64,000 nt of DNA from Chromohalobacter nigrandesensis. GTDB lineage: Bacteria; Pseudomonadota; Gammaproteobacteria; Pseudomonadales; Halomonadaceae. Of this stretch, positions 137-29,727 are shown piece by piece; position 1 is the stretch's first letter; each line of letters starts with the position of its first letter. The position numbers and the translations under genes are program-made. The stretch covers positions 1 through 64,000 of the forward strand of contig NZ_JAKGAM010000011.1 of NCBI RefSeq assembly GCF_023061285.1, in the 5' to 3' direction. The notes beneath the pieces were generated by a model. The model was not told where the DNA came from. It saw only the letters and a program-made list of their open reading frames with translations, and did not search any database.

Positions 137-757
137 ATGCGTGATGGATTCCACTTCTACGAGCCGCACCAGGGCCACGGCTTGCCCCACGACCCGTTCA
201 ACGCCATCGTCGGGCCACGCCCGATCGGCTGGGTTTCCTCCCAGGATCGCGACGGCCACCTGAACCTGGCACCTTACAGCTTCTTTAACGCCTTCAATTA
301 CACGCCGCCGATCGTCGGGTTCTCCAGCATCGGCTACAAGGACAGCGTGCGTAACATCGCTGCCACAGGCGAGTTTTGCTGGCACTTGGCGACCCGCCCG
401 CTCGCCGAACAGATGAATGCAAGCTGCGCGGCCGTCGCGCCCGAGGTGGATGAATTCGCGTTGGCCGGCCTCACGCCGCGCACTTCCCAGGTCGTTGACG
501 TACCGCACGTCGCCGAAGCGCGCGTCGCCTTCGAGTGTCGGCTGAGTCAGCTGATTCAGCTCCACTCCGCCGCTGGCGAGTCGCTCGAAACCTGGCTGGT
601 GCTGGGCGAGGTTGTCGGTGTGCACATCGACCAGTCACTGCTACATGACGGCGTCTATCAGACCGCCGAGGCGCGTCCCATCCTGCGCGGCGGCGGCCCG
701 GCCGATTACTTCGAGATCAGTGCCGAGCAGAACTTCAAGATGCACCGGCCAGGTTAA
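137..757 (+). CDS. Flavin reductase-like FMN-binding split-barrel protein
   Basis: The 206-residue product matches the flavin reductase-like / DIM6-NTAB family, which binds FMN in a split beta-barrel. The family signature is visible near residues 25-55: PRPIGWVSSQD followed by LNLAPYSFFNAFNY. There is no signal peptide or membrane segment, so it should be cytosolic. The ATG follows AGGGAAG at good spacing. It lies about 280 bp upstream of the hydroxyproline genes on the same strand, and I see no evidence that it belongs to that pathway. The substrate cannot be read from sequence; such proteins reduce flavins or act as small oxidoreductases. Family call is firm, specific function unknown. Confidence 0.8.
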   Translation: MRDGFHFYEPHQGHGLPHDPFNAIVGPRPIGWVSSQDRDGHLNLAPYSFFNAFNYTPPIVGFSSIGYKDSVRNIAATGEFCWHLATRPLAEQMNASCAAVAPEVDEFALAGLTPRTSQVVDVPHVAEARVAFECRLSQLIQLHSAAGESLETWLVLGEVVGVHIDQSLLHDGVYQTAEARPILRGGGPADYFEISAEQNFKMHRPG

Positions 758-991
758 CCACTCGCAGTGCAGTAACACCCCGGGACTCGCTCACGGCATC
801 GGCCACGGCGCAGTCCAGAATGTCATTTTCTCTTACTGGCCCCGTCCTTCCCGCCGTCGCCGGCCCACCGATGCTTTTCCTCATCGGCGTGGCGCCGGCT
901 CACGCATGCATGCACGATCCCCGGCATGTGCCTCATCACATGACCATCTTGGATGATTGTCTACGGACATGACTTCACAAAATCACTTGAA

Positions 992-9635: not shown

Positions 9636-11480
9636 TCACTGGCGGGTGCGGGCACGTTCGTAGATCTCCAAGCCGTCGCCACTCTCGCCATCTTCACCGC
9701 TCTCGTTGCTCTCGCCATCGGCGGCCGACTCGGCATCGTCCAGGTGATTGACACCACCGTTATTGACCACTTCGGAGAGGGTTTCCAGTGGCGATGACAC
9801 TAGGTTCTCGAGCGCCTCGCGGATCGCCTGACCGACAACACTGCCAAAGTCCACCGATCCAGGGTCATCAAGCGGTAAGCTCATGGGAATGTCGAGCTCA
9901 ATGGTGCCGCCATCGCTCCTCAGGACACCGACCAGCATCTTGAGCGGCAGATCGGTGGCCGAGGCATCGACCTCTTCGCCAAGCTTTAGCCGCTGCAGGA
10001 CGAGATGATTCTGAGACTCTAGACTGCCCTGCTCGAGCCGATAGTCGAGATCCAGCGTCGCCTGGCCACGCTCGACAGCATAGCCACCGAACTCGCGCAG
10101 ATAAGGATCTAAGGTCTCGAGATCGAGGCGCTCGAAGTGCAAGTTCAGGTTACCGTTCAGAGCGTCGCCGAGCGGATCGAAATCGCCCTCGATGCGCAGC
10201 GGAGAGCCATCGGCCACCTGCCCCTCGAGCGATAACTCACCATCGCCCGTCTGGTCCGAATTGAGCTGTCGCCACTCGCCATTCAGCGCCGAGAACTCGA
10301 GCTCGAACGGGCGCGGCAGGTGACGATCGCTGAAGGCCACCTCACCACGCTCGATGGTCAGGGTATCGAGTGCGTAGTGCATGCCTCCGTCTTCGGATCC
10401 ACCATCTTCGGAACCACTATCTTCAGAACCACCCTCATCAGAATCACCGCTCGATGACGGCGGGCGCCAGGCGGTGAGATTGGTACCGAGTTGTTCATCG
10501 ATCATCACATCGAGCCAGGGTGCCACAAGCGACACCCGCTCGGCACTTAGTTCAGGCTGCGCGCTGGCAAACGTCAGCCCCTCCACGGCGAAGCGTTCGG
10601 CACGGGCAATGGACTGGTCCTTCTCAGGGTCACGCATCTCGAGCCCTTCGATCGCACCCTGACCGTTGACGCGCATCCCGCCTTCATCTTCACTGGCCTG
10701 CCCCGCCCGTACGCGAATCTGCGCGCCCAGCGACCCCGCCGTGGGCTCGGCGCGAACAATGTACGCCAGATAGCCCGACAGCGTGGTCAGTGGTACCTGA
10801 TTCGCGTCGAGATCGACATCCACCGTCCACGGCGAAAAGCCCATTTCGCCATTGCCCTTCAGGGTGCCGCCGTTCCAGTCCGCCTGGCCGCTCAAGTCGA
10901 AGGGGCTCTGGGAAGTGTTGTCATAGCCGTGGAGCTTGAGATCGAGGTCTTCCAGACTCAGCGTCAGCGGCTCGTCGGGGCGTCGGTTGATCCAGTCGAG
11001 CCGGGCGTCGCTAGCGTTGAGTTGGTCGATGCGCAGCGGCATCGTCTCACCACCGCTGCCGCCATCACCGCCGAACAGTTGAACCAGGTTCCATTCACCG
11101 CTCGAGCGCCAGATCAGTTGCAGCCGCGGCGCGTTTAGATCGATCCGCTCGAAGCGCCAGCCCGATGCGAACAGCGAGTGCCAGTCGAGGGTTGCCACCA
11201 CCCGCTCGCTCGAGAAAACCGGCGTGTCGGCCTGACCTGCAATACTCACCCCGTCGAGGGTCACCTGGTGGCGCCACGGAGTAAGGGTGACGTCCTCGAT
11301 GGTCACCTGGCGACCGCTACGCTCGGCCAGCATCTGGGTGAGGCGCTTGTCGATATATGCCGGCAACGCCCACAACCAAGCGACCAGAAAGAGCAGTACC
11401 AGCACCGCGAGCACACTTAGCACCACGCCGAGGCGACGCTTGCGCGCCGGCCGTACCATGCTGCGCTCGGAATGCGGCAT
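9636..11480 (-). CDS. DUF748 AsmA-like membrane-anchored protein
   Basis: The 614-residue protein has one N-terminal transmembrane helix (about residues 16-38) and a long periplasmic region matching the DUF748/AsmA-like beta-rich family involved in envelope integrity and possibly lipid transport. A Ser/Glu/Asp/Gly linker with repeated SEDGG units is seen near residues 345-365, and the C-terminal tail is also acidic. DUF748 proteins are often longer than 900 residues, so this is a short form. The precise role is unknown. Confidence 0.8.
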   Translation of the reverse strand: MPHSERSMVRPARKRRLGVVLSVLAVLVLLFLVAWLWALPAYIDKRLTQMLAERSGRQVTIEDVTLTPWRHQVTLDGVSIAGQADTPVFSSERVVATLDWHSLFASGWRFERIDLNAPRLQLIWRSSGEWNLVQLFGGDGGSGGETMPLRIDQLNASDARLDWINRRPDEPLTLSLEDLDLKLHGYDNTSQSPFDLSGQADWNGGTLKGNGEMGFSPWTVDVDLDANQVPLTTLSGYLAYIVRAEPTAGSLGAQIRVRAGQASEDEGGMRVNGQGAIEGLEMRDPEKDQSIARAERFAVEGLTFASAQPELSAERVSLVAPWLDVMIDEQLGTNLTAWRPPSSSGDSDEGGSEDSGSEDGGSEDGGMHYALDTLTIERGEVAFSDRHLPRPFELEFSALNGEWRQLNSDQTGDGELSLEGQVADGSPLRIEGDFDPLGDALNGNLNLHFERLDLETLDPYLREFGGYAVERGQATLDLDYRLEQGSLESQNHLVLQRLKLGEEVDASATDLPLKMLVGVLRSDGGTIELDIPMSLPLDDPGSVDFGSVVGQAIREALENLVSSPLETLSEVVNNGGVNHLDDAESAADGESNESGEDGESGDGLEIYERARTRQ

Positions 11481-12887: not shown

Positions 12888-13418
12888 TCAGGACGTGGGC
12901 GCGGTCGCCTGTTCGGCGATATCGGCGAAGATCGTATCCAGCTTGTTGGCGATGCCTGCCAATGACTCGGCCCGGCCAGGATCGTCGATACGCGCTATAT
13001 AAGGCGCAAATATCACGCTGGGGAGCTTCCAAGCCAGCGTCGCAGTGCCGTCCTCGTTTTCGGTGATATAGAAGCGAATCGGTGCCTCGATCATCGCCGG
13101 TACGCTCAAACGCAATATATCGACCGCAAAGTCGTTGCGAAACACGCCGACCACCCGGTTACCGGGAATCTCCACACCGCGTTGGGCGGCTGCCTGGGTA
13201 GGCCCGACATCGGTAACGACACCCATGTCGTTAGCCTCTACGGCACTCTTGAGGTGATCGAGCAGCGTAGTATAGTTCTGCTGGGTGGGAATCACTCGCC
13301 AGCCATCTTGCGGCCAGTGGTCATCAGCCCATGTGACCGATGTCATCAGCATCAGCATGGCGACCAACACCAGGCGAGCCGTTACGCTGTCATGTCTTGC
13401 CTTATGATCGTCTCTCAT
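12888..13418 (-). CDS. DUF302 protein with signal peptide
   Basis: The 176-residue product begins with a Sec-type signal (hydrophobic core VLVAMLMLM, cleavage near TWA) and continues into a DUF302 domain (about 40-150). DUF302 has no established biochemical function. The ATG at 13418 overlaps the preceding DinB stop as ATGA and has GAGGTG upstream, showing translational coupling. It is the last gene of the six-gene ATP-grasp/peptide operon. A role in handling the exported peptides is speculative. Confidence 0.82.
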   Translation of the reverse strand: MRDDHKARHDSVTARLVLVAMLMLMTSVTWADDHWPQDGWRVIPTQQNYTTLLDHLKSAVEANDMGVVTDVGPTQAAAQRGVEIPGNRVVGVFRNDFAVDILRLSVPAMIEAPIRFYITENEDGTATLAWKLPSVIFAPYIARIDDPGRAESLAGIANKLDTIFADIAEQATAPTS

Positions 13419-13972
13419 GATCGCACCTCGTGGACCGGTTGGGATGTATGCTGCCAATGGCGCAGCGTCGAGGGATGCACACCGAAGGTCTGGGGTGTTT
13501 CGATACCCTGGCTGTCGGCAAGCAACGCGATGATGGCCATGTGGTGAATCGCGTGACTGGTCATAAAGGTCAACTCGCGCTCCAGGCTGGAGGTCAACGG
13601 CCAATCCTGATCACCGGCTTGGTAGCGCAGGTGGACCAGACGCGTGGACGTATCAAAGGCATCGACTTGCTCCAGGCGCTCGATCAACCGTCGCATGTGC
13701 ACCAGCGCTTTGTCAGGGTCCTGTTCCAGCTCAGGATTACGCTCGCGATATTCATAGTCCAGCGTAGTCGCCGTTGTGGTCTCTACCCAATTCAAAAAGG
13801 CCTGGTAGTGATCAAGGACATGCCGCACATGCTTGCCCACGGAGTGTCGCGCATCCACACCATGCGGCGCGGCGTATTGCTCAGGCGGCAGGCCAGCCAC
13901 GAAATCCGCCAGTTGCCACAGGGTGTCGATGGTCTCACTGAGCAAGGCATTCGACGCAGTAGTGGAAGCCAT
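13415..13972 (-). CDS. DinB-family protein
   Basis: The 185-residue four-helix-bundle protein shows the DinB metal-ligand pattern: a histidine in HVLDHYQAF and a later HAIHHMAI pair. DinB/YfiT-like proteins are metal-dependent thiol S-transferases or related hydrolases. The ATG at 13972 was chosen over an upstream start because AGGAG precedes it by 8 nt. It lies 66 bp after the second repeat peptide gene and overlaps the DUF302 start by 4 nt. In this operon it could be a tailoring or detoxifying enzyme; this is inferred from context only. Confidence 0.82.
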   Translation of the reverse strand: MASTTASNALLSETIDTLWQLADFVAGLPPEQYAAPHGVDARHSVGKHVRHVLDHYQAFLNWVETTTATTLDYEYRERNPELEQDPDKALVHMRRLIERLEQVDAFDTSTRLVHLRYQAGDQDWPLTSSLERELTFMTSHAIHHMAIIALLADSQGIETPQTFGVHPSTLRHWQHTSQPVHEVRS

Positions 13973-14038
13973 GGCAAGGACTCCTGTGCTGATAGAATTG
14001 AAAACAGGGCGCGAGATCGCGCCCTGCAATCGGCGATG

Positions 14039-14308
14039 TCAGGCGCTGCCTTCGCCTTCGCCTTCTGCTTCACCCTCGCCTTCTGCTTCACCTTCTGCTT
14101 CACCCTCGCCTTCTGCTTCACCTTCGGCATTCGCCAGCAGCGGCATATCGCTCTGCACCGTCGCGTAACCGCCGGTATCAGCAGTCGTGTCGGCAACCGC
14201 CTGAGCGGCGAGTGGCGCGGACATCAGCAGCAGCATGGGGGTCGTGTAGATCACCTGACGACTCAGGCGTCCCATCAGGCCATGACGCTTGCTTTCATGT
14301 GACATCAT
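14039..14308 (-). CDS. Small exported Glu/Gly/Ala-repeat peptide (putative precursor B)
   Basis: This 89-residue product has a basic start, a hydrophobic stretch ending LAAQA (a signal-peptidase-like AxA site near residue 37), a short linker and a tail of about 29 residues made almost only of Glu, Gly and Ala. AGGAG stands 7 nt before the ATG; a second ATG follows directly. It aligns with peptide A: LSR, then I-x-Y-x-x-P, an Ala-rich end of the hydrophobic stretch, then DT/GY. It lies between the other peptide gene and dinB in one operon. I know no named family. The tail chemistry resembles acidic tails modified by tubulin-tyrosine-ligase-like enzymes. Confidence 0.7.
   Translation of the reverse strand: MMSHESKRHGLMGRLSRQVIYTTPMLLLMSAPLAAQAVADTTADTGGYATVQSDMPLLANAEGEAEGEGEAEGEAEGEGEAEGEGEGSA
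14042..14131 (-). repeat. Tandem DNA repeat encoding the acidic tail of peptide B
   Basis: Degenerate 6- to 18-bp units such as GCTTCACCCTCGCCTTCT (plus strand) repeat across about 90 bp. They encode GEAEGE-type units, and the reading frame is kept throughout. Copy number could vary by slippage without changing the frame. Confidence 0.75.
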
Positions 14309-14375
14309 GATTGCACTCCTTTCTTGCGTAGGTGGCGATGCGATGCATCGCCGATGAAGAGGCCTCGACAAGGTA

Positions 14376-14627
14376 TCAACCGGCCTCTGGACTGGCTTCG
14401 GCTTCCGGGCTGGCTTCACCTTCCGGACTGGCTTCACCTTCCGGGCTGGCTTCACCTTCCGCGCCAGCCTCGGCCGAGGCGAACATGTAATAACCGCTAG
14501 GCGTCGCCACATCGGAGTAGATGGCGTAGGCAGCGGAAGCACCGACCACGATGGCAAACGCCGGAACGCTGTAGGCGATCCCCCGCGAGAGCGAGTCGAG
14601 CAAGGTGCGACGCGAATTCTGGTTCAT
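14376..14627 (-). CDS. Small exported SPEGEA-repeat peptide (putative precursor A)
   Basis: This 83-residue product begins with SRRTLL, close to the twin-arginine export motif. A hydrophobic segment (about 19-35) ends in SAAYA, an AxA-like cleavage site. After the YSDVATPSGYYMF linker comes a tail of SPEGEA-type hexapeptide repeats (residues 52-83). AAGGAG precedes the ATG. It is paralogous to peptide B in leader layout but uses Ser-Pro-Glu units. It follows the DoxX gene by 38 bp in the same operon. No known family was recognised; a precursor peptide for the upstream ATP-grasp/PqqD protein is the best hypothesis. Confidence 0.7.
   Translation of the reverse strand: MNQNSRRTLLDSLSRGIAYSVPAFAIVVGASAAYAIYSDVATPSGYYMFASAEAGAEGEASPEGEASPEGEASPEAEASPEAG
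14389..14462 (-). repeat. 18-bp tandem repeats encoding the SPEGEA tail
   Basis: About four units close to GGGCTGGCTTCACCTTCC (plus strand) lie head to tail, each encoding six residues of peptide A. Unit differences are mostly single bases. The 18-bp period keeps frame and allows copy-number change by recombination. Confidence 0.8.
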
Positions 14628-14665
14628 AGCAAGATCTCCTTAGGGGGCTAGGGCGCCATCATGAG

Positions 14666-15094
14666 TCAGGTATTATTGCCCTTGGCCATCAGGTACAGGG
14701 CGACCAGGAGCAACGTGACCTGGAACATCATGCCGCCGAGCGGATGGGTCGGCGTGGCCATGAAGTGCCACTGGCCCCAGTGCTCCATGAAGATGGCGCC
14801 CAGCAGGATCGGCATCACCAACAGGCCGCCAAGGCGGGTCGCGGCGTCACCAAGTCGCTCGGCCATTACGCCGCCGAGCAAGATCAGGGCACCGGTGGCA
14901 ATCTCGCCCAGCGCGACCGCCAGGGCGATGATCAACGGCAGATTCATGATCTGGGCAAAGCCCTGTAGGCCGCTGCCCGCGAACTTGTCGATCCCTGTAT
15001 ACAGGAAGACGCTGGCCATGGCGGCGCGCAGCAGCCAATGCGCCCAGGACGCCTGAGTAAGGGTCTGAGAGGATTTCCGTGGTGAGTCTGTCAT
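14666..15094 (-). CDS. DoxX-family membrane protein
   Basis: The 142-residue product has four predicted membrane helices and DoxX features: LLRAAMASVFLYTGIDKF at the start and ALGEIATGALILLGG in the middle. The ATG at 15094 has AGGAG 9 nt upstream; a TTG at 15100 would be too close to it. DoxX proteins are quinone- or redox-linked membrane proteins and recur in ribosomal-peptide operons such as bufferin-type clusters. Here it lies between the ATP-grasp gene and the two repeat peptides, so a role in peptide export or redox maturation is plausible but unproven. Confidence 0.85.
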   Translation of the reverse strand: MTDSPRKSSQTLTQASWAHWLLRAAMASVFLYTGIDKFAGSGLQGFAQIMNLPLIIALAVALGEIATGALILLGGVMAERLGDAATRLGGLLVMPILLGAIFMEHWGQWHFMATPTHPLGGMMFQVTLLLVALYLMAKGNNT

Positions 15095-15154
15095 GAGCAA
15101 GCTCTCCTGATAGTGACGACGTGCGCCGACGATGAATTCACAGTGGCGATCGTT

Positions 15155-17500
15155 TCACTGCTCGATCGGCAAGGCTTTGTGCCTGTTATCTTCAAAGGGC
15201 TTTGTTTCCCATCCCGGGATATCGCTGGACAGCGAGAACATCGGTAGCTCGATAAGCAGATCGAGCAAGGCAGCGACGTCATCGCCACGCGAAGGCGCAC
15301 GGTCGGCACGCCGACAGGCCGGCAGCAACGCCGCGAGAAGTGTCAGTGGTGCAGGCTGCGCCGTGTCGTCATCGTATTTCGTCGCGCCGACGATCCTCAG
15401 GGTGGCCGGCGACGGCGACGGCGTGGCCGCGAGTCGTCCTCCTTCCAAGGCCAGCGGCAATCCGAGCGCGCTGGCCTGCCCGGGCACCTGACGCTGCCAG
15501 GCCAGGCCCCGTACCAGGCTATAACCGGTGGCTTCGGCCTCCTCACGCAGCGTCAGCCAGGCATCGTCGGCGACGGCCACCAAGACGGCTTCCTCAGGCG
15601 CTTCTGGGTGAACCAGCAGCGCGGCGTCGATCATCAGCTGTTGCTCGTCGAGCGTCCGCCGTGCGAGCCGGTCGACCAGGCAAGGACCGAGTTCGGCGAG
15701 CCCCAGATGAGAAGCCAACAAGATGTCGTCAAGCATGATGCGGTAGCCGCCGGACTCGCCAATCAGTCTCAAGCGGGGCAATGTACGGCCCTGCTCGGCA
15801 TCCAGTAGCGTCAGAGCGCCCGCCAGGCGGTCGAGAGCCGGGGCGCTATCGGTATGCAACGCCCAGGTGTGCTCGGCCAGGGAGAAGCCGAGCGGCGTCG
15901 ATGCCGCGCTCGGTGAGGCATCCCGTGCCGCTGTATCGGGCGCCTGACGAGATGTTTGTCGATACTCATCTGCGTTTACCGGTGCTTGCTGCAGAAACCC
16001 CTGGCGGCACCAGTCGGCCAGGCAATGCCAGACATGCCCTTCCAGCGCATCGCGATCGGGCGGCGCATGTCCGGCCTGGCTGGCGTCGAACAATCGCTCG
16101 ACGATGCTGCTGGGTGTCTCACCCTCGCTAGCCAGCAGCCAGATCAGGGCGGCGCTGTCATTGAGCAGGCACATATCACCACGGCGCGTGTCGTACAGTG
16201 CCAGGCGGTCGTCGTCGATCAGTTCGCAGACATCTCCGCGCTGCAGGCGTGGCTCAGGCAGCGGAGATGCTGTCAACGCCTTTGCCAGGTGCCAATCCAG
16301 ACGACTCGGCCAGGTAAAAAACGCCAGGTGATCGACGGGGTCGGCACTCGGATAGAGACGCAGGAAATCGCCGGCACGGGCCAGTTCACGTCGGGTATCG
16401 TCAAGCAGTGCCCGTGGAGAAGCATCGCTGGCCGCAGGAACCTCCTGACCATCGAGATCCACCAGTGAGACCATGTCCTCGACCAGTTGCCGCTTGATGG
16501 ACTCTTCGAGTATCCCGCCACTTTCGGGACCCGCACAGACCCCGAGCGACGGACTCAGGTTGCATTCCAGGACCCAGGGCTTGAGATCGGCATCGATCAG
16601 GCAATCGATGCCCAGCAGTTCATAACCACCGCGCGCATCGACGCCTTCGTCATCACATCGTTGCCGGAAGGTATCCAGGGCCGCTATGACCGTCAGCGTC
16701 AGTTGGTCGTGAAGACGCGCGAACAAGGCGTCGTCGTCATGCCCCTGCTCACGTAGCCAGGCACGATAGCGTTCCAGGTCAATGAACTCGACGGGGACCT
16801 CGGCATCCGTATTACGGGTATTGATGTCAGGGTTAGTCAGCTGACTGAACAGGTTGGCGGTATCGTCGCGATCGTAGGGCGCCGAGGCAAGCTTGGCGAA
16901 TCCCTGGCGAAAAACATACAGGCGTAAGGGATCGAGCGACGCCAGCAGGACATACAGGCGCAAGACATATTTATGGCCGCGAATGGTATGCGGATCATCG
17001 AGGTATTCCTGAACCAGCCAGTGAGCCTGGCGAGGCGCCTCGGCGACATCGTCGAGCAGGCGAATGCCCTTGCCCTTGGAGGCATTGCTGGGCTTGAGAA
17101 TCCAGCGCTGTTCAGGATCAGCCAACGCCGTCTCCTGCAACGCATGATAATCATCGGGCATGAGGTAGGAGCGGGGGAAAAAGTCAAGCCGCGCGACCTG
17201 TGGAGAGTTGGCACCGAAACGTACGCTCATTCGCTCGCGAAGCGCTGCCAGCGATTGGTACAGACGACTTTTCAGCGTCAGTGCATTGTTGCCGGGCAGA
17301 TGATTGAACTTGCATGTTGGCGAAAGCTTGCGGAATTGCACTCTATCGGGTGTCCCGGTGTACCAGCCGGCCTGCCAGTCCTCGGCATCGCCGGCGCACC
17401 AGCCGCGTGCCTCGAGTGCCTCGCGGAAGAAGCGATCCTGCTCATCGGCACGCTTGCCCCCCAACCAATAACGACGCGCCCGCGACGATTGTATGGCCAT
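15155..17500 (-). CDS. TTL-like ATP-grasp / PqqD-like / HprK-like fusion protein
   Basis: The 781-residue protein has three parts. Residues about 60-345 resemble tubulin-tyrosine-ligase ATP-grasp enzymes: LPGNNALTLKSRLYQSL, WILKPSNASKGKGIRLL, QEYLDDPHTIRGHKYVLRLY, the LTNPDINTRN loop and LLGIDCLIDADLKPWVLECN with metal/ATP ligands. Residues about 425-505 look like a PqqD-type peptide-binding (RRE) domain, with YDTRRGDMCLLNDSAALIW. Residues about 535-781 resemble HprK-related domains but lack a visible P-loop. ATP-grasp plus RRE implies ATP-driven ligation of an amino acid or similar group to a ribosomal peptide. First gene of the operon with the two acidic repeat peptides, which are the obvious substrates. 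Start at ATG 17500 after CGGAG. Confidence 0.82.
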   Translation of the reverse strand: MAIQSSRARRYWLGGKRADEQDRFFREALEARGWCAGDAEDWQAGWYTGTPDRVQFRKLSPTCKFNHLPGNNALTLKSRLYQSLAALRERMSVRFGANSPQVARLDFFPRSYLMPDDYHALQETALADPEQRWILKPSNASKGKGIRLLDDVAEAPRQAHWLVQEYLDDPHTIRGHKYVLRLYVLLASLDPLRLYVFRQGFAKLASAPYDRDDTANLFSQLTNPDINTRNTDAEVPVEFIDLERYRAWLREQGHDDDALFARLHDQLTLTVIAALDTFRQRCDDEGVDARGGYELLGIDCLIDADLKPWVLECNLSPSLGVCAGPESGGILEESIKRQLVEDMVSLVDLDGQEVPAASDASPRALLDDTRRELARAGDFLRLYPSADPVDHLAFFTWPSRLDWHLAKALTASPLPEPRLQRGDVCELIDDDRLALYDTRRGDMCLLNDSAALIWLLASEGETPSSIVERLFDASQAGHAPPDRDALEGHVWHCLADWCRQGFLQQAPVNADEYRQTSRQAPDTAARDASPSAASTPLGFSLAEHTWALHTDSAPALDRLAGALTLLDAEQGRTLPRLRLIGESGGYRIMLDDILLASHLGLAELGPCLVDRLARRTLDEQQLMIDAALLVHPEAPEEAVLVAVADDAWLTLREEAEATGYSLVRGLAWQRQVPGQASALGLPLALEGGRLAATPSPSPATLRIVGATKYDDDTAQPAPLTLLAALLPACRRADRAPSRGDDVAALLDLLIELPMFSLSSDIPGWETKPFEDNRHKALPIEQ

Positions 17501-17751
17501 TTGCTCCGCTCCCGATGGATATTGTTGATTTCTAGTTTATGTGTCGGGAGTGGGGAGACATCCTTACAGGCTTTCACGTATTTTTCGCGAGTGAGGAAAC
17601 GAGCCGTCGCCGAAACCGACAATAGGCGATCCAATGACAGACGTCTTAGTCAGTGCACGATGTAAGGACTGTGCGATGTAAGAAACGCCAGCGCATGACG
17701 ACCAAGTGGCGAGGCCATATAAGGCACAAATGGAAGGGAGAAACGGACCGC
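17501..17751. promoter_or_regulatory. Divergent promoter region, ATP-grasp operon and ynjB-like gene
   Basis: This 251-bp spacer must contain both promoters. A direct repeat CGATGTAAG occurs at 17658-17666 and 17674-17682, 16 bp apart, which could be a regulator site. No riboswitch-like thiamine box was recognised despite the transporter type downstream. Confidence 0.4.
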
Positions 17752-22904: not shown

Positions 22905-22939
22905 ATTTCCTGTAAGGATATCGACCCAGGACACGACTC

Positions 22940-23614
22940 ATGCGTATGAAAATCAGACTGACAAACAAGGTAGTATGGGCGTGCAGCTTGACGCTCGGGA
23001 TACAGACAGCTTGGGCATCCGATGTCGAATTTTCAGCCCGCGACATGGCCGCCTGGTCGACGCGCGCTTTTGAAGGAGAGACGCGTTATTCGATAGTCCA
23101 GGATGACGGCGTCGAGGTGCTTCAAGCAAATGCGCAAGGCCAGGCCTCTGCCAAGTATCTGGAACGCGAGATCGATCTGCGCAAGACACCGTACCTGCAC
23201 TGGTGCTGGAAGGTGGATACCCGCTACTCGGGACTCGATGAGCGCACTCAGGCCGGCGATGACTACCCTGCCCGATTCTATATCGCGCGCAAGACGGGCT
23301 TTCTTCCGTGGCAGGTGCAATCCGTCAACTATGTATGGTCATCCAACCAATCTGTCGGCGCCAGTTGGGAGAATGCCTTCACGGATCGTGCCATGCTGCT
23401 GGCCCTGCAAGGTGAGCAGTCGCCACTCGGCGAATGGCGAGCGGAAGTCCGCGATGTCGGTGGCGATTTCGAGGCACTTTTCGGTGAGTCGGTCACCAGT
23501 ATCGATGGCGTCGCCTTGATGAGCGACGGCGACAACGCAGGCGGCCATGCCACCGCCTGGTATTACGCCGCTGGCTTTTCCGATTCGCCGGCTCCTCCCG
23601 ACTGCCCGGACTGA
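22940..23614 (+). CDS. DUF3047 protein with signal peptide
   Basis: The 224-residue product has a signal peptide ending near QTAWA and a DUF3047 domain recognised by YLHWCWKVDT, DDYPARFYIARK and the C-terminal VDGVALMSDGDNAGG-like segment (here IDGVALMSDGDNAGG). The domain is probably a periplasmic beta-sandwich of unknown function. AGGACACGACTC precedes the ATG. It precedes the glutaredoxin-like gene by 16 bp. Confidence 0.85.
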   Translation: MRMKIRLTNKVVWACSLTLGIQTAWASDVEFSARDMAAWSTRAFEGETRYSIVQDDGVEVLQANAQGQASAKYLEREIDLRKTPYLHWCWKVDTRYSGLDERTQAGDDYPARFYIARKTGFLPWQVQSVNYVWSSNQSVGASWENAFTDRAMLLALQGEQSPLGEWRAEVRDVGGDFEALFGESVTSIDGVALMSDGDNAGGHATAWYYAAGFSDSPAPPDCPD

Positions 23615-23630
23615 TACCAGGAGATCCATC

Positions 23631-23975
23631 ATGTGGCATCTTATTTCGCGACTGATGAAAAGCGAGGCAACCGCTATCGAACGCACGGCGCAAGCGCAGC
23701 AGGAAGTTGACCGACAAGCCCAATACCTCGCGCTCTATCACTTCGAGGGGTGCCCTTTCTGCACCAGAGTGCGACGCGTCCTGCAGAGGCTGAATGTCGA
23801 ACTTGCCTTGCACGATATCAACAGGGATCCCGAGGCGAGACAGGCGCTGATCACTGGCGGCGGAAAGAAGACCGTCCCCTGCTTACGCATCGAACGCGAT
23901 GGAGCGATCACCTGGCTTTACGAATCCCGCGATATCATCGATTACTTGGAAAAAAGATTCGCCGCGATAAAGTGA
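23631..23975 (+). CDS. Glutaredoxin-like protein with CPFC motif
   Basis: The 114-residue product has a short N-terminal helical extension and then a glutaredoxin / GST-N-type thioredoxin fold with C41-PF-C44, a TVPCL cis-proline segment and ESRDIIDYLEKRF. The ATG at 23631 has AGGAGA upstream; the open frame before it overlaps DUF3047. It probably acts in the cytosol as a glutathione-dependent redox protein. Confidence 0.85.
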   Translation: MWHLISRLMKSEATAIERTAQAQQEVDRQAQYLALYHFEGCPFCTRVRRVLQRLNVELALHDINRDPEARQALITGGGKKTVPCLRIERDGAITWLYESRDIIDYLEKRFAAIK

Positions 23976-24124: not shown

Positions 24125-24739
24125 ATGGCGTCATGGCCCGATTCGTCACAAAGCGACACCTCAAAGCCATCTGCTGAACGCCAGCGCCGCCTGGCGGCAG
24201 TGCGTCCGCGTCTGCTTGCCTTCGCGCGTTTGCAGCTTCGCGATGCCTCTGAAGCGGATGACGTCGTCCAGGAGGCGCTGATTACCGCCGTCGAGAAAAA
24301 CGCTCGCTTCGAAGGAAAATCCGGCTACGAAACCTGGGTATTCGGCATTCTAAAAAACAAGATCCTGGATGCACTGCGAGCCCAGAAGCGCCATGGGAAA
24401 TGGCAACCCTGGTCCGACGACGGCGTCGAGGCAGCCATCGAGCAGCAATTTCAAAGTTCGGGAAGATGGACGGATGTTGCACGCCCCAGCAGTTGGGGCG
24501 ATCCTGAAAAAACGTTATTCAGCGAGCGCTTCTGGCAGGTATTCGATAGCTGCATGATTGCACTCCCCGATAACATCGCCAGGATTTTCACCATGCGTGA
24601 ACTCATGGGACTTTCTACACATCAGATATGCGAGGAAGCCGGAATCAAGGAAAATAACTGCTGGGTCATCCTTCATCGCGGCAGGCTTTTATTGAGAGCA
24701 TGTCTGGAGAAAGGATGGCTATCGGAGGCCAATAAATGA
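24125..24739 (+). CDS. ECF-type sigma-70 family factor
   Basis: The 204-residue protein has sigma region 2 (about 30-95, with DASEADDVVQEALITAVEK) and region 4 (about 140-195, LPDNIARIFTMRELMGLST and the recognition helix). No region 1 or 3 is present, so it is an ECF factor. GGGAGATTCAGC precedes the ATG. The next gene, overlapping by 4 nt, encodes a zf-HC2 protein, the usual anti-sigma partner. A matching upstream element before the AhpD-like gene suggests a target. Confidence 0.88.
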   Translation: MASWPDSSQSDTSKPSAERQRRLAAVRPRLLAFARLQLRDASEADDVVQEALITAVEKNARFEGKSGYETWVFGILKNKILDALRAQKRHGKWQPWSDDGVEAAIEQQFQSSGRWTDVARPSSWGDPEKTLFSERFWQVFDSCMIALPDNIARIFTMRELMGLSTHQICEEAGIKENNCWVILHRGRLLLRACLEKGWLSEANK

Positions 24740-27354: not shown

Positions 27355-27546
27355 CATGGTCGCGATGGTAGTGACGTGTAAGGATCACACTACAATCTCG
27401 ACTCATTAAGCGATCGTTTGGCATTCGGCCATGACATCTGGATGCACGAAGGCAACAACCTGCCAGGCCACCTGCTGTCAGGTCCGACTAACAAGCCACT
27501 TACTACGTCAATGTCCGCTGACCAACGTGGATAAAAGGGGGACGGT

Positions 27547-29727
27547 TTGAAACATTACCGCATACTGATTCTGGCTGTCGTCCTGGTGGCGATCGTGGCG
27601 TTCTTCGTGGGCGGCGTTGACGATTACCTGACGCTCGAGTCCATCAAGGCGCTGCAAACACGGTTCGATCAATGGTTCGCGGCGTCTCCCTGGCTGGTCG
27701 CTGGCGGCTTTTTTCTCATCTATGTGCTAATCGCCGCCCTCTCGCTGCCCGGCGCGACATTGCTGACCTTGCTCGGCGGCGCGTTATTCGGGCTGGGCTG
27801 GGGATTCTTGATCATCTCCTTCGCGAGCAGCATTGGCGCTACGCTGGCCTTTCTCGTCTCCCGCATCTTGTTCAGGTCCGCAGTAGAGCATCGCTTTGCT
27901 CGATATCTGGACACGATCAATAAGGGCATTGAGCGTGACGGCGCCTTGTATCTGTTCAGTCTGCGACTGGTGCCGCTTTTCCCGTTTTTCGTCATTAACC
28001 TGGTGATGGGACTGACTCGGCTGCGTACCTGGGTGTTCTATATTGCCAGCCAGATCGGCATGATTCCCGGCACGCTGGTCTATGTGAACGCCGGCCAGCA
28101 GCTCGGCGAGCTGCAGTCGCTGGGTGGCGTCGTCTCACCGTCGTTGCTGCTGTCCTTCGCCCTTTTGGGAGTCTTTCCGCTAATCGCGCGCTGGGTCGTC
28201 GACTGGCTGCAGCGCCGCAAGCGCTACCGGGGATACGCCAAACCCCGGCACTTCGATTACGACATCCTGGTGGTCGGCGGCGGCTCGGCGGGCCTGGTTA
28301 CCAGTTACATCGCCAGCGCGGTACGCGCCCGGGTCGCGCTCGTCGAGAGTGGCGCCATGGGCGGCGACTGCCTCAATACCGGCTGCGTGCCCTCAAAGGC
28401 GCTGATTCGCGCCGCACGCGCCGCCCAGAATATTCGCGACGCCGAGCACCTAGGCGTGCATGCCGGGGAACCGCGTGTCGACTTCGGCGCGGTCATGGGC
28501 CATGTACGGCGTGTCATCGAGGAGGTGGCACCCCACGACAGCGAGGAGCGTTATACCGGCCTGGGCGTCGACGTTCAACGCGGCACGGCACGGCTGATAT
28601 CTCCCTGGGCCGTCGAAGTCGACGGCAAGCAACTCACGGCCCGGCATATCGTCATCGCCACCGGCGCCACACCCAAGGTACCGTCGATCCCCGGCATCGA
28701 GCAGATCGACGTACTGACCTCCGAAAACCTATGGACGTTGACCGAGCAACCGCAGCGCCTGGTGATACTGGGCGGCGGCGCTATCGGTTGCGAGCTCGGC
28801 CAGAGTTTCGCCCGCCTGGGCAGCCAGGTGACGCTGGTCGAGGGCGCCGGGCAATTGCTGGGGCGCGAGGATGACGAAGTCGGCGATCTCGTCACCCACC
28901 GACTCGTCGCCGAAGGCGTCGACGTCATGACAAGCACAAAGGCGATCGCAGTGAGCGTCGAGGACGGCGAAAAACATCTCCTCGTCGAGAAGACCGGCGG
29001 TGGGCAAACACACATTCCCTTCGACCGCCTGTTGGTCAGCGTCGGGCGCCAGGCCAACGTCACAGGGCTCGGACTGGAAGAACTGGGGGTGGAAACCCGC
29101 GACAACGGCACCCTGGAAGTCAACGAGCAGCTCCAAACCAAGCTACCCAATATCTGGGCCTGCGGCGATGTCGTCGGTCCCTATCAATTGACACACGCCG
29201 CCGCACATCAGGCCTGGCACGCTGCCGTCAACGCACTGTTCGGCGAGTTCAAGCGCTTCAAGGTCGACTACCGCATCATGCCCGCGGTGACGTACCTGCA
29301 GCCCGAAGTGGCGCGGGTGGGGCTCAATGAGCGCGAGGCCACCGCCCAGGGCATCGCCTATGAGGTGACCCGTTATGAGATGGCCGAAAGCGATCGGGCG
29401 ATCGCCGAGCGCGCCACTGCCGGCTTCGTCAAGATTCTCACCGTGCCGGGCAAGGATCGTATCCTGGGCGCAACCCTGGTCGGCGAGAACGCCGGCGAAT
29501 GGCTGGCGGAGTTGACGCTGGCGATGAAACACAATATCGGGCTCAACAAACTGCTGGGGACGATTCATCCCTATCCGACACTCTCGGAAGCCACCAAGGG
29601 TGCCGCCGGCGCCTGGAAAAACGCCCATAAGCCCGAGCGGGTGCTCGACTGGTTAGGGCGTTATTTTCGTTGGCGGCGTGGAGAGCGTCGCCGGGATCGC
29701 CATGGCGCCCATTCATCGCGCTCGTGA
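27547..29727 (+). CDS. VTT membrane domain fused to FAD-NAD(P) disulfide oxidoreductase
   Basis: The 726-residue protein has an N-terminal TVP38/TMEM64 (VTT/SNARE-associated) membrane domain (about 1-225, LSLPGATLLTLLGGALFG) and a mercuric-reductase/lipoamide-dehydrogenase-like flavoprotein (about 237-700) with VVGGGSAGL, redox GGDCLNTGCVPSK, NAD-site ILGGGAIGCELGQ and C-terminal HPYPTLSE. The start is a TTG preceded by AGGGGG; no in-frame ATG lies near. The fusion tethers a disulfide reductase to the inner membrane, perhaps to pass electrons across it. Fused forms are known in proteobacteria; substrate unknown. Confidence 0.85.
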   Translation: MKHYRILILAVVLVAIVAFFVGGVDDYLTLESIKALQTRFDQWFAASPWLVAGGFFLIYVLIAALSLPGATLLTLLGGALFGLGWGFLIISFASSIGATLAFLVSRILFRSAVEHRFARYLDTINKGIERDGALYLFSLRLVPLFPFFVINLVMGLTRLRTWVFYIASQIGMIPGTLVYVNAGQQLGELQSLGGVVSPSLLLSFALLGVFPLIARWVVDWLQRRKRYRGYAKPRHFDYDILVVGGGSAGLVTSYIASAVRARVALVESGAMGGDCLNTGCVPSKALIRAARAAQNIRDAEHLGVHAGEPRVDFGAVMGHVRRVIEEVAPHDSEERYTGLGVDVQRGTARLISPWAVEVDGKQLTARHIVIATGATPKVPSIPGIEQIDVLTSENLWTLTEQPQRLVILGGGAIGCELGQSFARLGSQVTLVEGAGQLLGREDDEVGDLVTHRLVAEGVDVMTSTKAIAVSVEDGEKHLLVEKTGGGQTHIPFDRLLVSVGRQANVTGLGLEELGVETRDNGTLEVNEQLQTKLPNIWACGDVVGPYQLTHAAAHQAWHAAVNALFGEFKRFKVDYRIMPAVTYLQPEVARVGLNEREATAQGIAYEVTRYEMAESDRAIAERATAGFVKILTVPGKDRILGATLVGENAGEWLAELTLAMKHNIGLNKLLGTIHPYPTLSEATKGAAGAWKNAHKPERVLDWLGRYFRWRRGERRRDRHGAHSSRS

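Follow-up and report, generated by a model that had tools for sequence, protein, structure and literature searches.

A tubulin tyrosine ligase-like enzyme fused to a peptide recognition element and co-inherited with leader-bearing, Glu-rich proteins in Chromohalobacter nigrandesensis and its relatives

The first 64,000 nt of contig NZ_JAKGAM010000011.1 (positions 1-64,000; assembly GCF_023061285.1, Chromohalobacter nigrandesensis, 3.64 Mb in total), which we call the window, contain a minus-strand operon (12888-17500) headed by a gene for a 781-aa protein (15155..17500). In this protein a tubulin tyrosine ligase-like (TTLL) domain is fused to a PqqD-type recognition element (RRE) for ribosomally synthesized and post-translationally modified peptides (RiPPs) and to an HprK/PEPCK-like domain. 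With slightly better than even confidence, we propose that the enzyme is guided by its RRE to ligate amino acids, probably Glu, to the side chains of glutamates in exported peptides and cytochromes, as part of an envelope-stress regulon. The operon comprises six head-to-tail genes, in the order TTLL-RRE-HprK-like fusion, DoxX, peptide A, peptide B, DinB and DUF302, with spacers of 60, 38, 67 and 66 bp and a 4-bp overlap (ATGA) between the DinB and DUF302 genes, exactly the layout given in a preliminary description of this DNA (six minus-strand genes, spacers of 38-67 bp, one ATGA overlap).

Sequence, fold and the active-site residues checked all identify the 781-aa protein as a full member of the TTLL family. 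Residues 63-345 match Pfam TTL at 2.6e-50 (171.8 bits against a cut-off of 20.1), and the best sequence matches among solved structures are the polyglutamylases TTLL6 (7.3e-34), TTLL7 and TTLL11, ahead of tubulin tyrosine ligase. In an AlphaFold2 model of the enzyme built from 58 homologues (mean pLDDT 86.7, pTM 0.85), the ligase domain occupies residues 6-395 (16316..17485, minus strand); VIA-align superposes these on TTLL6 (6vzv_A; Z 43.2, rmsd 2.2, 364 of 404 residues aligned), while Foldseek matches the model to another TTLL6 entry (6vzq_C; E 7.5e-29, TMt 0.81) and tubulin tyrosine ligase scores below TTLL6 (Z ~31 vs. 43). K136, Q164, K177, R181, D299, E312 and N314 are identical to the aligned TTLL6 residues and invariant in 58/58 homologues, which reach down to 38% identity (a 90% identity cut left 59 of 69 full-length frames in the alignment, from which one partial row, L095, was excluded; a further alignment, A4, has 54 rows). 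The TTL-type ATP-grasp enzyme of the preliminary description is borne out by the Pfam match, the structural match to TTLL6 and this invariant active site.

Branch-initiating TTLL enzymes (initiases) carry Arg at the position of TTLL6 Gln180. At the corresponding position of the window enzyme, 142, 54 of the 58 homologues have Lys and the other 4 Arg; the residue preceding it is Ser or Ala, with Leu where two printed TTLL6 chains have His or Ile, and the printed alignment shows which letters were altered in the engineered TTLL6 chain. Gln180 is described, in the part of PMC12366701 consulted, as the primary determinant of TTLL6 elongase selectivity. Since a basic residue, Lys142, replaces the Gln180 of an elongase, the sequence suggests that the window enzyme favors branch initiation on unmodified glutamates and not elongation alone.

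The C-terminal half of the enzyme (residues 404-781) was folded separately because the Pfam PqqD match (3.7e-04) lies under its cut-off, and it gave a model with pLDDT 87.3. Residues 417-505 (15986..16252, minus strand) adopt the three-strand, three-helix winged fold of PqqD and RREs, and VIA-align matches them to the TbiB1-leader complex (5v1u_C; Z 13.3, rmsd 1.2, 82 residues aligned), to 6jx3_B (Z 13.3) and to PqqD itself (5sxy; Z 9.3). The top six Foldseek matches for the C-terminal half are all lasso B1 proteins with bound leader. A methyltransferase (8hkr) also matches this region, at Z 10.2, between the lasso RREs (13) and PqqD (9.3), so this winged fold also occurs outside RREs. The preliminary description had staked its proposal on a PqqD fold at residues 425-505 of a model, and the fold is there, at residues 417-505; its HprK-like tail is also retained, on moderate evidence and with the P-loop absent. 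Residues ~525-777 (15170..15928 for 525-777, minus strand) match PEPCK entries at Z 8-9 over ~230-245 residues with rmsd ~5 (VIA-align), and HPr kinase 1knx with a Foldseek probability of 0.89 but an E of only 0.11; HPr kinase is not among the 50 VIA-align matches listed for the C-terminal half, an absence that carries no weight. A profile comparison of the enzyme with a PqqD-HprK fusion from another genome (G394) gave a probability of 96.9 and E 1.6e-10 over residues ~430-616, and a P-loop (GxxxxGK[ST]) was found in 0/58 enzyme homologues. Overall, the enzyme resembles a TTLL ligase attached to an RRE-HprK module of the HPr-rel-A/LPP (linear polyphosphorylated peptide) type in which the nucleotide site of the kinase part has been lost. 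The G394 fusion (L105:453-3065; PqqD 1.6e-13, HprK_rel_A 1.4e-26) has a visible P-loop. Alongside it are encoded an NTP_transf_5 protein and a peptide of 71 aa, with a leader (RRAFLKK...YTPPAMM) similar to the leaders of peptides A and B. G394 also has a TTL gene, on a different contig and without an RRE.

Peptide A (83 aa; 14376..14627, minus strand) has an SRR n-region, a YSVPAF leader and a Glu/Ala/Gly/Ser/Pro tail with four Ser, and peptide B (89 aa; 14039..14308, minus strand) a YTTPML leader and a Glu/Gly/Ala tail with 13 Glu among its final 29 residues (features taken from the translations, a family alignment and tail composition). Both are real genes, with homologues beside or near the enzyme gene in dozens of genomes. 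The search for candidate substrates covered 1.235 Mb from 69 sources (the window, 64 named loci and four more) and picked out open reading frames (ORFs) with a 24-residue stretch containing ≥7 Glu and ≥21 Glu/Gly/Ala/Asp. A leader-bearing Glu/Gly/Ala-rich ORF shares the locus with the enzyme in 62/64 named loci, in agreement with the expectation of the preliminary description that leader-bearing acidic proteins regularly lie beside the enzyme. The two loci without one are L091, where the contig ends inside the enzyme gene, and L100, which has an enzyme fragment only. The short precursor gene near a modifying enzyme that typifies RiPP pathways is accordingly found in these 62 loci, three of which (L046, L080 and L092) have the cytochrome type described below as their sole Glu-rich ORF, nearly 5 kb away in L046 and L092. 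Every ORF meeting the composition threshold carries a leader (by a loose pattern; in L097, by eye), while peptide A of the window, with Ser and Pro in its tail, falls short of the strict threshold.

The 79 distinct leader-bearing proteins comprise 57 B-type, 9 A-type and 13 cytochrome-type members. YxxPx[LVIFAM] is present in 66/79 leaders and in only 10/574 control ORFs from the same loci; excerpts of PMC13381572 give [Y/W]xxPx[L/V/I/F/A] as the leader motif read by lasso RREs. The leaders also look like export signals, with a basic pair or n-region in 78/79 (controls, 174/574) and a hydrophobic run in 76/79 (controls, 157/574). A loose A-x-A pattern occurs in 79/79 leaders but also in 395/574 controls and is uninformative alone; all three features together are found in 43/574 controls.

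The feature common to all three substrate types is the Glu-rich segment, which may be internal (Glu 36-43%, Ala 25-35%, Gly 15-24%; 23-78 residues long). The C-terminal tails of tubulin are likewise acidic and Glu/Gly-rich, and we take the two to be comparable. In 13/79 proteins the segment sits between the leader and a cytochrome c domain or motif, and SoxA-TsdA_cyt-c scored above its cut-off in 4/4 cytochromes tested (L056, L080, L083 and L138). The Glu/Gly/Ala stretches vary in length, and no regular repeat unit or cleavage site was seen in them. The multi-core precursors envisaged in the preliminary description were set aside on these grounds, i.e., no core or cleavage unit seen, lengths of 23-78 residues and a cytochrome domain following the segment in 13/79 proteins; for the same reasons the Glu-rich parts resemble a polyacid stretch that is to be decorated. 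The internal position in the cytochromes also favors modification of side chains over C-terminal ligation as the reaction common to all. SoxA/TsdA-like c-type cytochromes with the leader and a Glu-rich segment ahead of the heme domain are encoded at L056:7031-7837, L061:6963-7808, L064:7091-7825, L046:15267-16034, L092:15263-16048, L080:10959-11645, L138:4595-5491 and elsewhere.

Enzyme and leader are inherited together. Among 201 genomes of the window's family, 45 have both, none has the enzyme only, one has a leader only (G118) and 155 have neither, although these counts are non-independent events, the genomes being related and the genes mostly linked. Raw enzyme matches occurred in 48/201 genomes, 45 being left after one fragment (G021; 201 residues, E 2e-92) and two weak matches (G078 and G179; E above 1e-4) were set aside, as were leader matches in G019, G029, G089 and G139 (E 1.5e-4 or worse); if G021 were scored as having the enzyme, there would be one enzyme-only genome. 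The 45 genomes with both have two leader matches in 40 cases, one in three and three in two. In G170 a B-type peptide and DinB are on a different contig from the enzyme, and both are kept.

An extracytoplasmic function (ECF)-type promoter, TGTAAGG-N15-CGAC, lies just upstream of the first operon gene (17543..17568, minus strand), and the pattern occurs three times in the window against 0.07 expected. The second copy (22911-22937) precedes a DUF3047 gene (promoter and gene, 22911..23614, plus strand; DUF3047 3.8e-51), and the third (27377-27402) a gene for an FAD disulfide oxidoreductase (27547-29727; together 27377..29727, plus strand). The candidate regulator is an ECF sigma factor of the TIGR02943 family (24125..24739, plus strand; NCBIfam 2.2e-64), and a glutaredoxin-like gene (23547..23975, plus strand; Pfam Glutaredoxin 6e-15, GST_N_3 9.4e-16) is situated between the DUF3047 and sigma genes. 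Because the listed DUF3047 start codon is only 2 bases behind the promoter site, the true start may be the next Met. A looser form of the promoter is present upstream of the enzyme gene in 52/69 regions, with a spacer of 15 in 46, and across the 64 named loci the pattern with spacers of 15-18 has 97 matches against 3 in one shuffled control; at least 41 of the 97 lie where the enzyme gene begins. The whole genome has 8 copies with a spacer of 15-16 against 2 for the reversed pattern; one is directly upstream of an OsmC peroxiredoxin gene (L177), and others are in or near genes without an evident link. The TIGR02943 sigma family is encoded near the enzyme in 44/68 loci. In Haemophilus influenzae and Neisseria, a DoxX gene cluster is under the control of an ECF sigma factor, which in H. 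influenzae responds to hypochlorite (PMC7907618 and PMC3240639, in excerpt). By analogy with these clusters, and from the promoter-linked genes, the setting is probably envelope oxidative or thiol stress.

In the mechanism that we propose, the PqqD/RRE domain would bind the N-terminal leader of peptides A and B via YxxP, as its fold and the motif suggest, and the fused TTLL domain would use ATP to join amino acids, most likely Glu, onto Glu side chains of the Glu-rich segment. If Lys142 is a guide, the ligase would start branches on unmodified glutamates in addition to lengthening them. The leader would double as an export signal, bringing the tagged products outside the cytoplasm, where DoxX and other members of an ECF-sigma-controlled oxidative/thiol-stress regulon would act; in relatives, this segment is also found on a SoxA/TsdA-like cytochrome c. 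More speculatively, the polyanionic product may bind metal by chelation or modulate how the exported proteins interact.

Several observations weigh against this mechanism, besides the non-independence of the co-occurrence counts. The ligation chemistry is read entirely from homology. The sequence does not tell which amino acid is donated, and some members of the TTLL family add glycine. The leader motif is missing from 13/79 leaders, in which Tyr is replaced by His, Ser, Gln, Pro, Val or Cys, and the promoter motif from 17/69 upstream regions (among them several Vreelandella loci, the Marinobacter-like loci and G355, G466 and G561). The enzyme frame is broken into two or three pieces in L047, L095 and L097, whereas the peptide is intact. 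G118 has an intact leader-bearing cytochrome frame (L195, ~9790-10540, plus strand) and no TTLL-RRE gene was found in its genome; it is possible that it has lost the enzyme. In Aidingimonas halophila (G021; L100/L197) the enzyme is reduced to its first ~200 residues, preceded by an ECF-type promoter match. No leader match and no Glu-rich peptide were found in this genome and locus (G021/L100), where the system seems to have decayed as a unit. Among the broken loci, that of Halomonas jincaotanensis (L009/L047) has one in-frame TAG stop in the enzyme gene and an intact adjoining peptide gene.

Of the alternatives, the one to which we give a modest chance keeps the architecture and changes the donor or site, so that glycine, another amino acid or a small amine would be added, or the C-terminus extended. 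TTLL relatives do differ in donor (TTLL3, TTLL8 and TTLL10 are glycylases according to excerpts of PMC12340829), and many of the peptide tails end in Gly, Ala or Thr; against this, the closest structures are the glutamylases TTLL6, TTLL11 and TTLL7, and the internal Glu-rich segments of the cytochrome fusions oppose C-terminal addition as the shared reaction. A graspetide-like pathway, in which an ATP-grasp enzyme forms lactam or lactone rings between Glu and Lys, Ser or Thr, appears unlikely. ATP-grasp enzymes make such rings in graspetides (PMC8939145, in part), and 8/9 A-type and 35/57 B-type segments contain one or more residues from the set K, S, T, C, Y, N and R; peptide A of the window has four Ser in its tail. 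None of these residues, however, is found in 22/57 B-type, 7/13 cytochrome-type and 1/9 A-type segments, and the ligase is of the TTLL type; the B-type and cytochrome-type segments that lack a ring partner disfavor rings as the shared reaction. We regard as similarly unlikely that the ligase targets a small molecule, itself or another protein, with the acidic peptides serving as RRE-bound adaptors or chaperones of DoxX or cytochrome partners. Entry of the Glu-rich tail into the active site has no direct proof, and the segment ranges from 23 to 78 residues, which would suit such a role, but leader, Glu-rich segment and enzyme are co-inherited whereas DoxX, DUF302 and the cytochrome come and go. 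It is very improbable that this is an ordinary metal/redox-stress operon with a vestigial RiPP enzyme and plain secreted acidic proteins, as the HprK-like part without a P-loop, the enzyme gene broken in three named loci and the stress genes among the candidate regulon members might indicate, because a vestigial enzyme would not have kept TTLL active-site residues invariant over 58 proteins down to 38% identity.

The remaining operon genes encode a DoxX-family membrane protein (142 aa; 14666..15094; Pfam DoxX 3.6e-07) and two accessory proteins, of the DinB family (13415..13972; Pfam DinB 9.8e-08) and with DUF302 (12888..13418; 7.1e-05, its 23.0 bits being exactly the Pfam cut-off), all on the minus strand. 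A terminator-like hairpin with a 10-pair stem and a T-rich tail (14004..14027, minus strand) separates peptide B from DinB, so DinB and DUF302 may be transcribed less; five terminator-like sites were found in the region against 2.9 in shuffles, and this stem is the longest by far. All six genes of the preliminary description are present in the window; in relatives the partners vary: at E 0.01, DinB-like proteins are encoded in 63/67 loci, DUF302 in 33/67 and DoxX in 10/67, DoxX co-occurring with peptide-A-type genes. Rhodaneses are encoded near the enzyme in 34/68 loci (e.g., L082:6753-7739) and within ~6 kb of it in the distant genomes G561 and G1224. In mycobacteria, DoxX and a sulfurtransferase form a membrane redox complex (work cited in PMC7907618, seen in part).

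Named relatives belong to Halomonas, Vreelandella, Billgrantia, Chromohalobacter and similar genera, which we take to be Halomonadaceae, plus one Marinobacter (Marinobacter persicus, L080); the scan that found them used two patterns typical of Halomonas-type enzymes, so distant enzymes are under-sampled. In the class, 8/369 genomes match an enzyme profile (A1): the window's own, G355, G466, G561, G394 and, as partial matches, G305, G405 and G488. In the order, 12/390 match a second profile (A2): five of the window's family, G687, G1224, G1246 (TTL part only) and four weak matches. In the phylum, Pfam TTL has matches in 48/398 genomes (43 above cut-off), with E better than 1e-8 only in G000, G047, G687 and G871. 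TTLL and RRE parts are joined in one protein outside the window's family in G355, G466, G561, G687, G1224 and M. persicus. The TTL domain of G871 (L139:7045-9672) is in a single 875-aa frame with a 2OG-Fe(II) oxygenase and a GlcNAc-type glycosyltransferase. A role in anti-phage defense and carriage on plasmids were considered and rejected, as PADLOC had no match to the six operon proteins at E 0.001 and tblastn none in the plasmid collection; viral contigs had no match to six patterns derived from the window enzyme.

By the features compared, the system is not a graspetide, bufferin or HPr-rel-A/LPP pathway; it resembles TTLL tubulin-tail modification in its proposed chemistry, lasso and LPP pathways in its apparent steering and bufferins in its genetic setting (PMC12452194, in part). 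With the tubulin polyglutamylases TTLL6, TTLL7 and TTLL11 it shares the fold over 310-372 residues and, with TTLL6, the checked active-site residues; the substrate tails, candidate ones in the window, are acidic and Glu/Gly-rich in both. Unlike them, the window enzyme is bacterial and fused to an RRE and an HprK-like domain, and its candidate substrates are exported peptides and cytochromes, not tubulin. The lasso B1 proteins TbiB1 and TfuB1 have the same RRE fold (Z 13.3, rmsd 1.2) and leader motif (YxxPx[L/V/I/F/A]), whereas the window RRE is joined to a TTLL ligase and no cyclase or B2 protease family match was found among the six operon genes. LPP/HPr-rel-A clusters are alike in their RRE and HprK-like module, YxxP leaders and one to three precursors per cluster (PMC13381572, in excerpt), but the kinase-like part in the window lacks a P-loop (0/58) and has a TTLL ligase in front. 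Bufferins, which are RiPPs made by MNIO enzymes, also have signal-peptide leaders, a DoxX partner, sigma-factor genes and a cytochrome fusion, according to the same parts of PMC12452194; in contrast, peptides A and B have no Cys, and Pfam gave no MNIO or DUF2063 match among the six genes. Graspetides share the use of an ATP-grasp enzyme on Glu-containing ribosomal peptides, and differ in that the window ligase is TTLL-type and ring partners are absent from many segments. RimK, also an ATP-grasp ligase, appends several glutamates to a protein (PMC4431377, in part), whereas the window enzyme has a TTL-type domain and, by prediction, RRE guidance and exported substrates.

We did not find the system described: literature searches returned no paper combining tubulin-tyrosine ligase, PqqD and ATP-grasp, nor one combining Halomonas and tubulin-tyrosine ligase. 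The term 'tubulin' was absent from the RRE-Finder paper (PMC7470986) and a structure-based RRE paper (PMC12710340), as were 'tubulin' and 'TTL' from a graspetide survey (PMC8939145), in the text of each that was searched. There is a fair chance that this putative RRE-guided peptide modification with a TTLL ligase will prove to be a new class once the chemistry is established. More tentatively, and a little short of even confidence, the system may be a bacterial counterpart of the tubulin code: controlled by an envelope-stress sigma factor, an RRE-steered TTLL enzyme would write glutamate side chains onto exported peptides and c-type cytochromes, in segments that resemble tubulin tails. If true, this would be a new class of ribosomal-peptide modification that brings TTLL-type ligases into the RiPP toolbox; it would also place TTLL enzymes in a prokaryotic context where the conserved substrate is a Glu/Gly-rich tail and not tubulin. 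It would offer a small, genetically simple system for the choice and extension of acidic tails by TTLL enzymes, and a testable rule, namely that a single YxxP leader motif recruits one enzyme to peptides and to a protein with a folded domain alike. For the salt-loving bacteria that carry it, it would be a protein tag tied to periplasmic redox/metal stress and to a SoxA/TsdA-like cytochrome.

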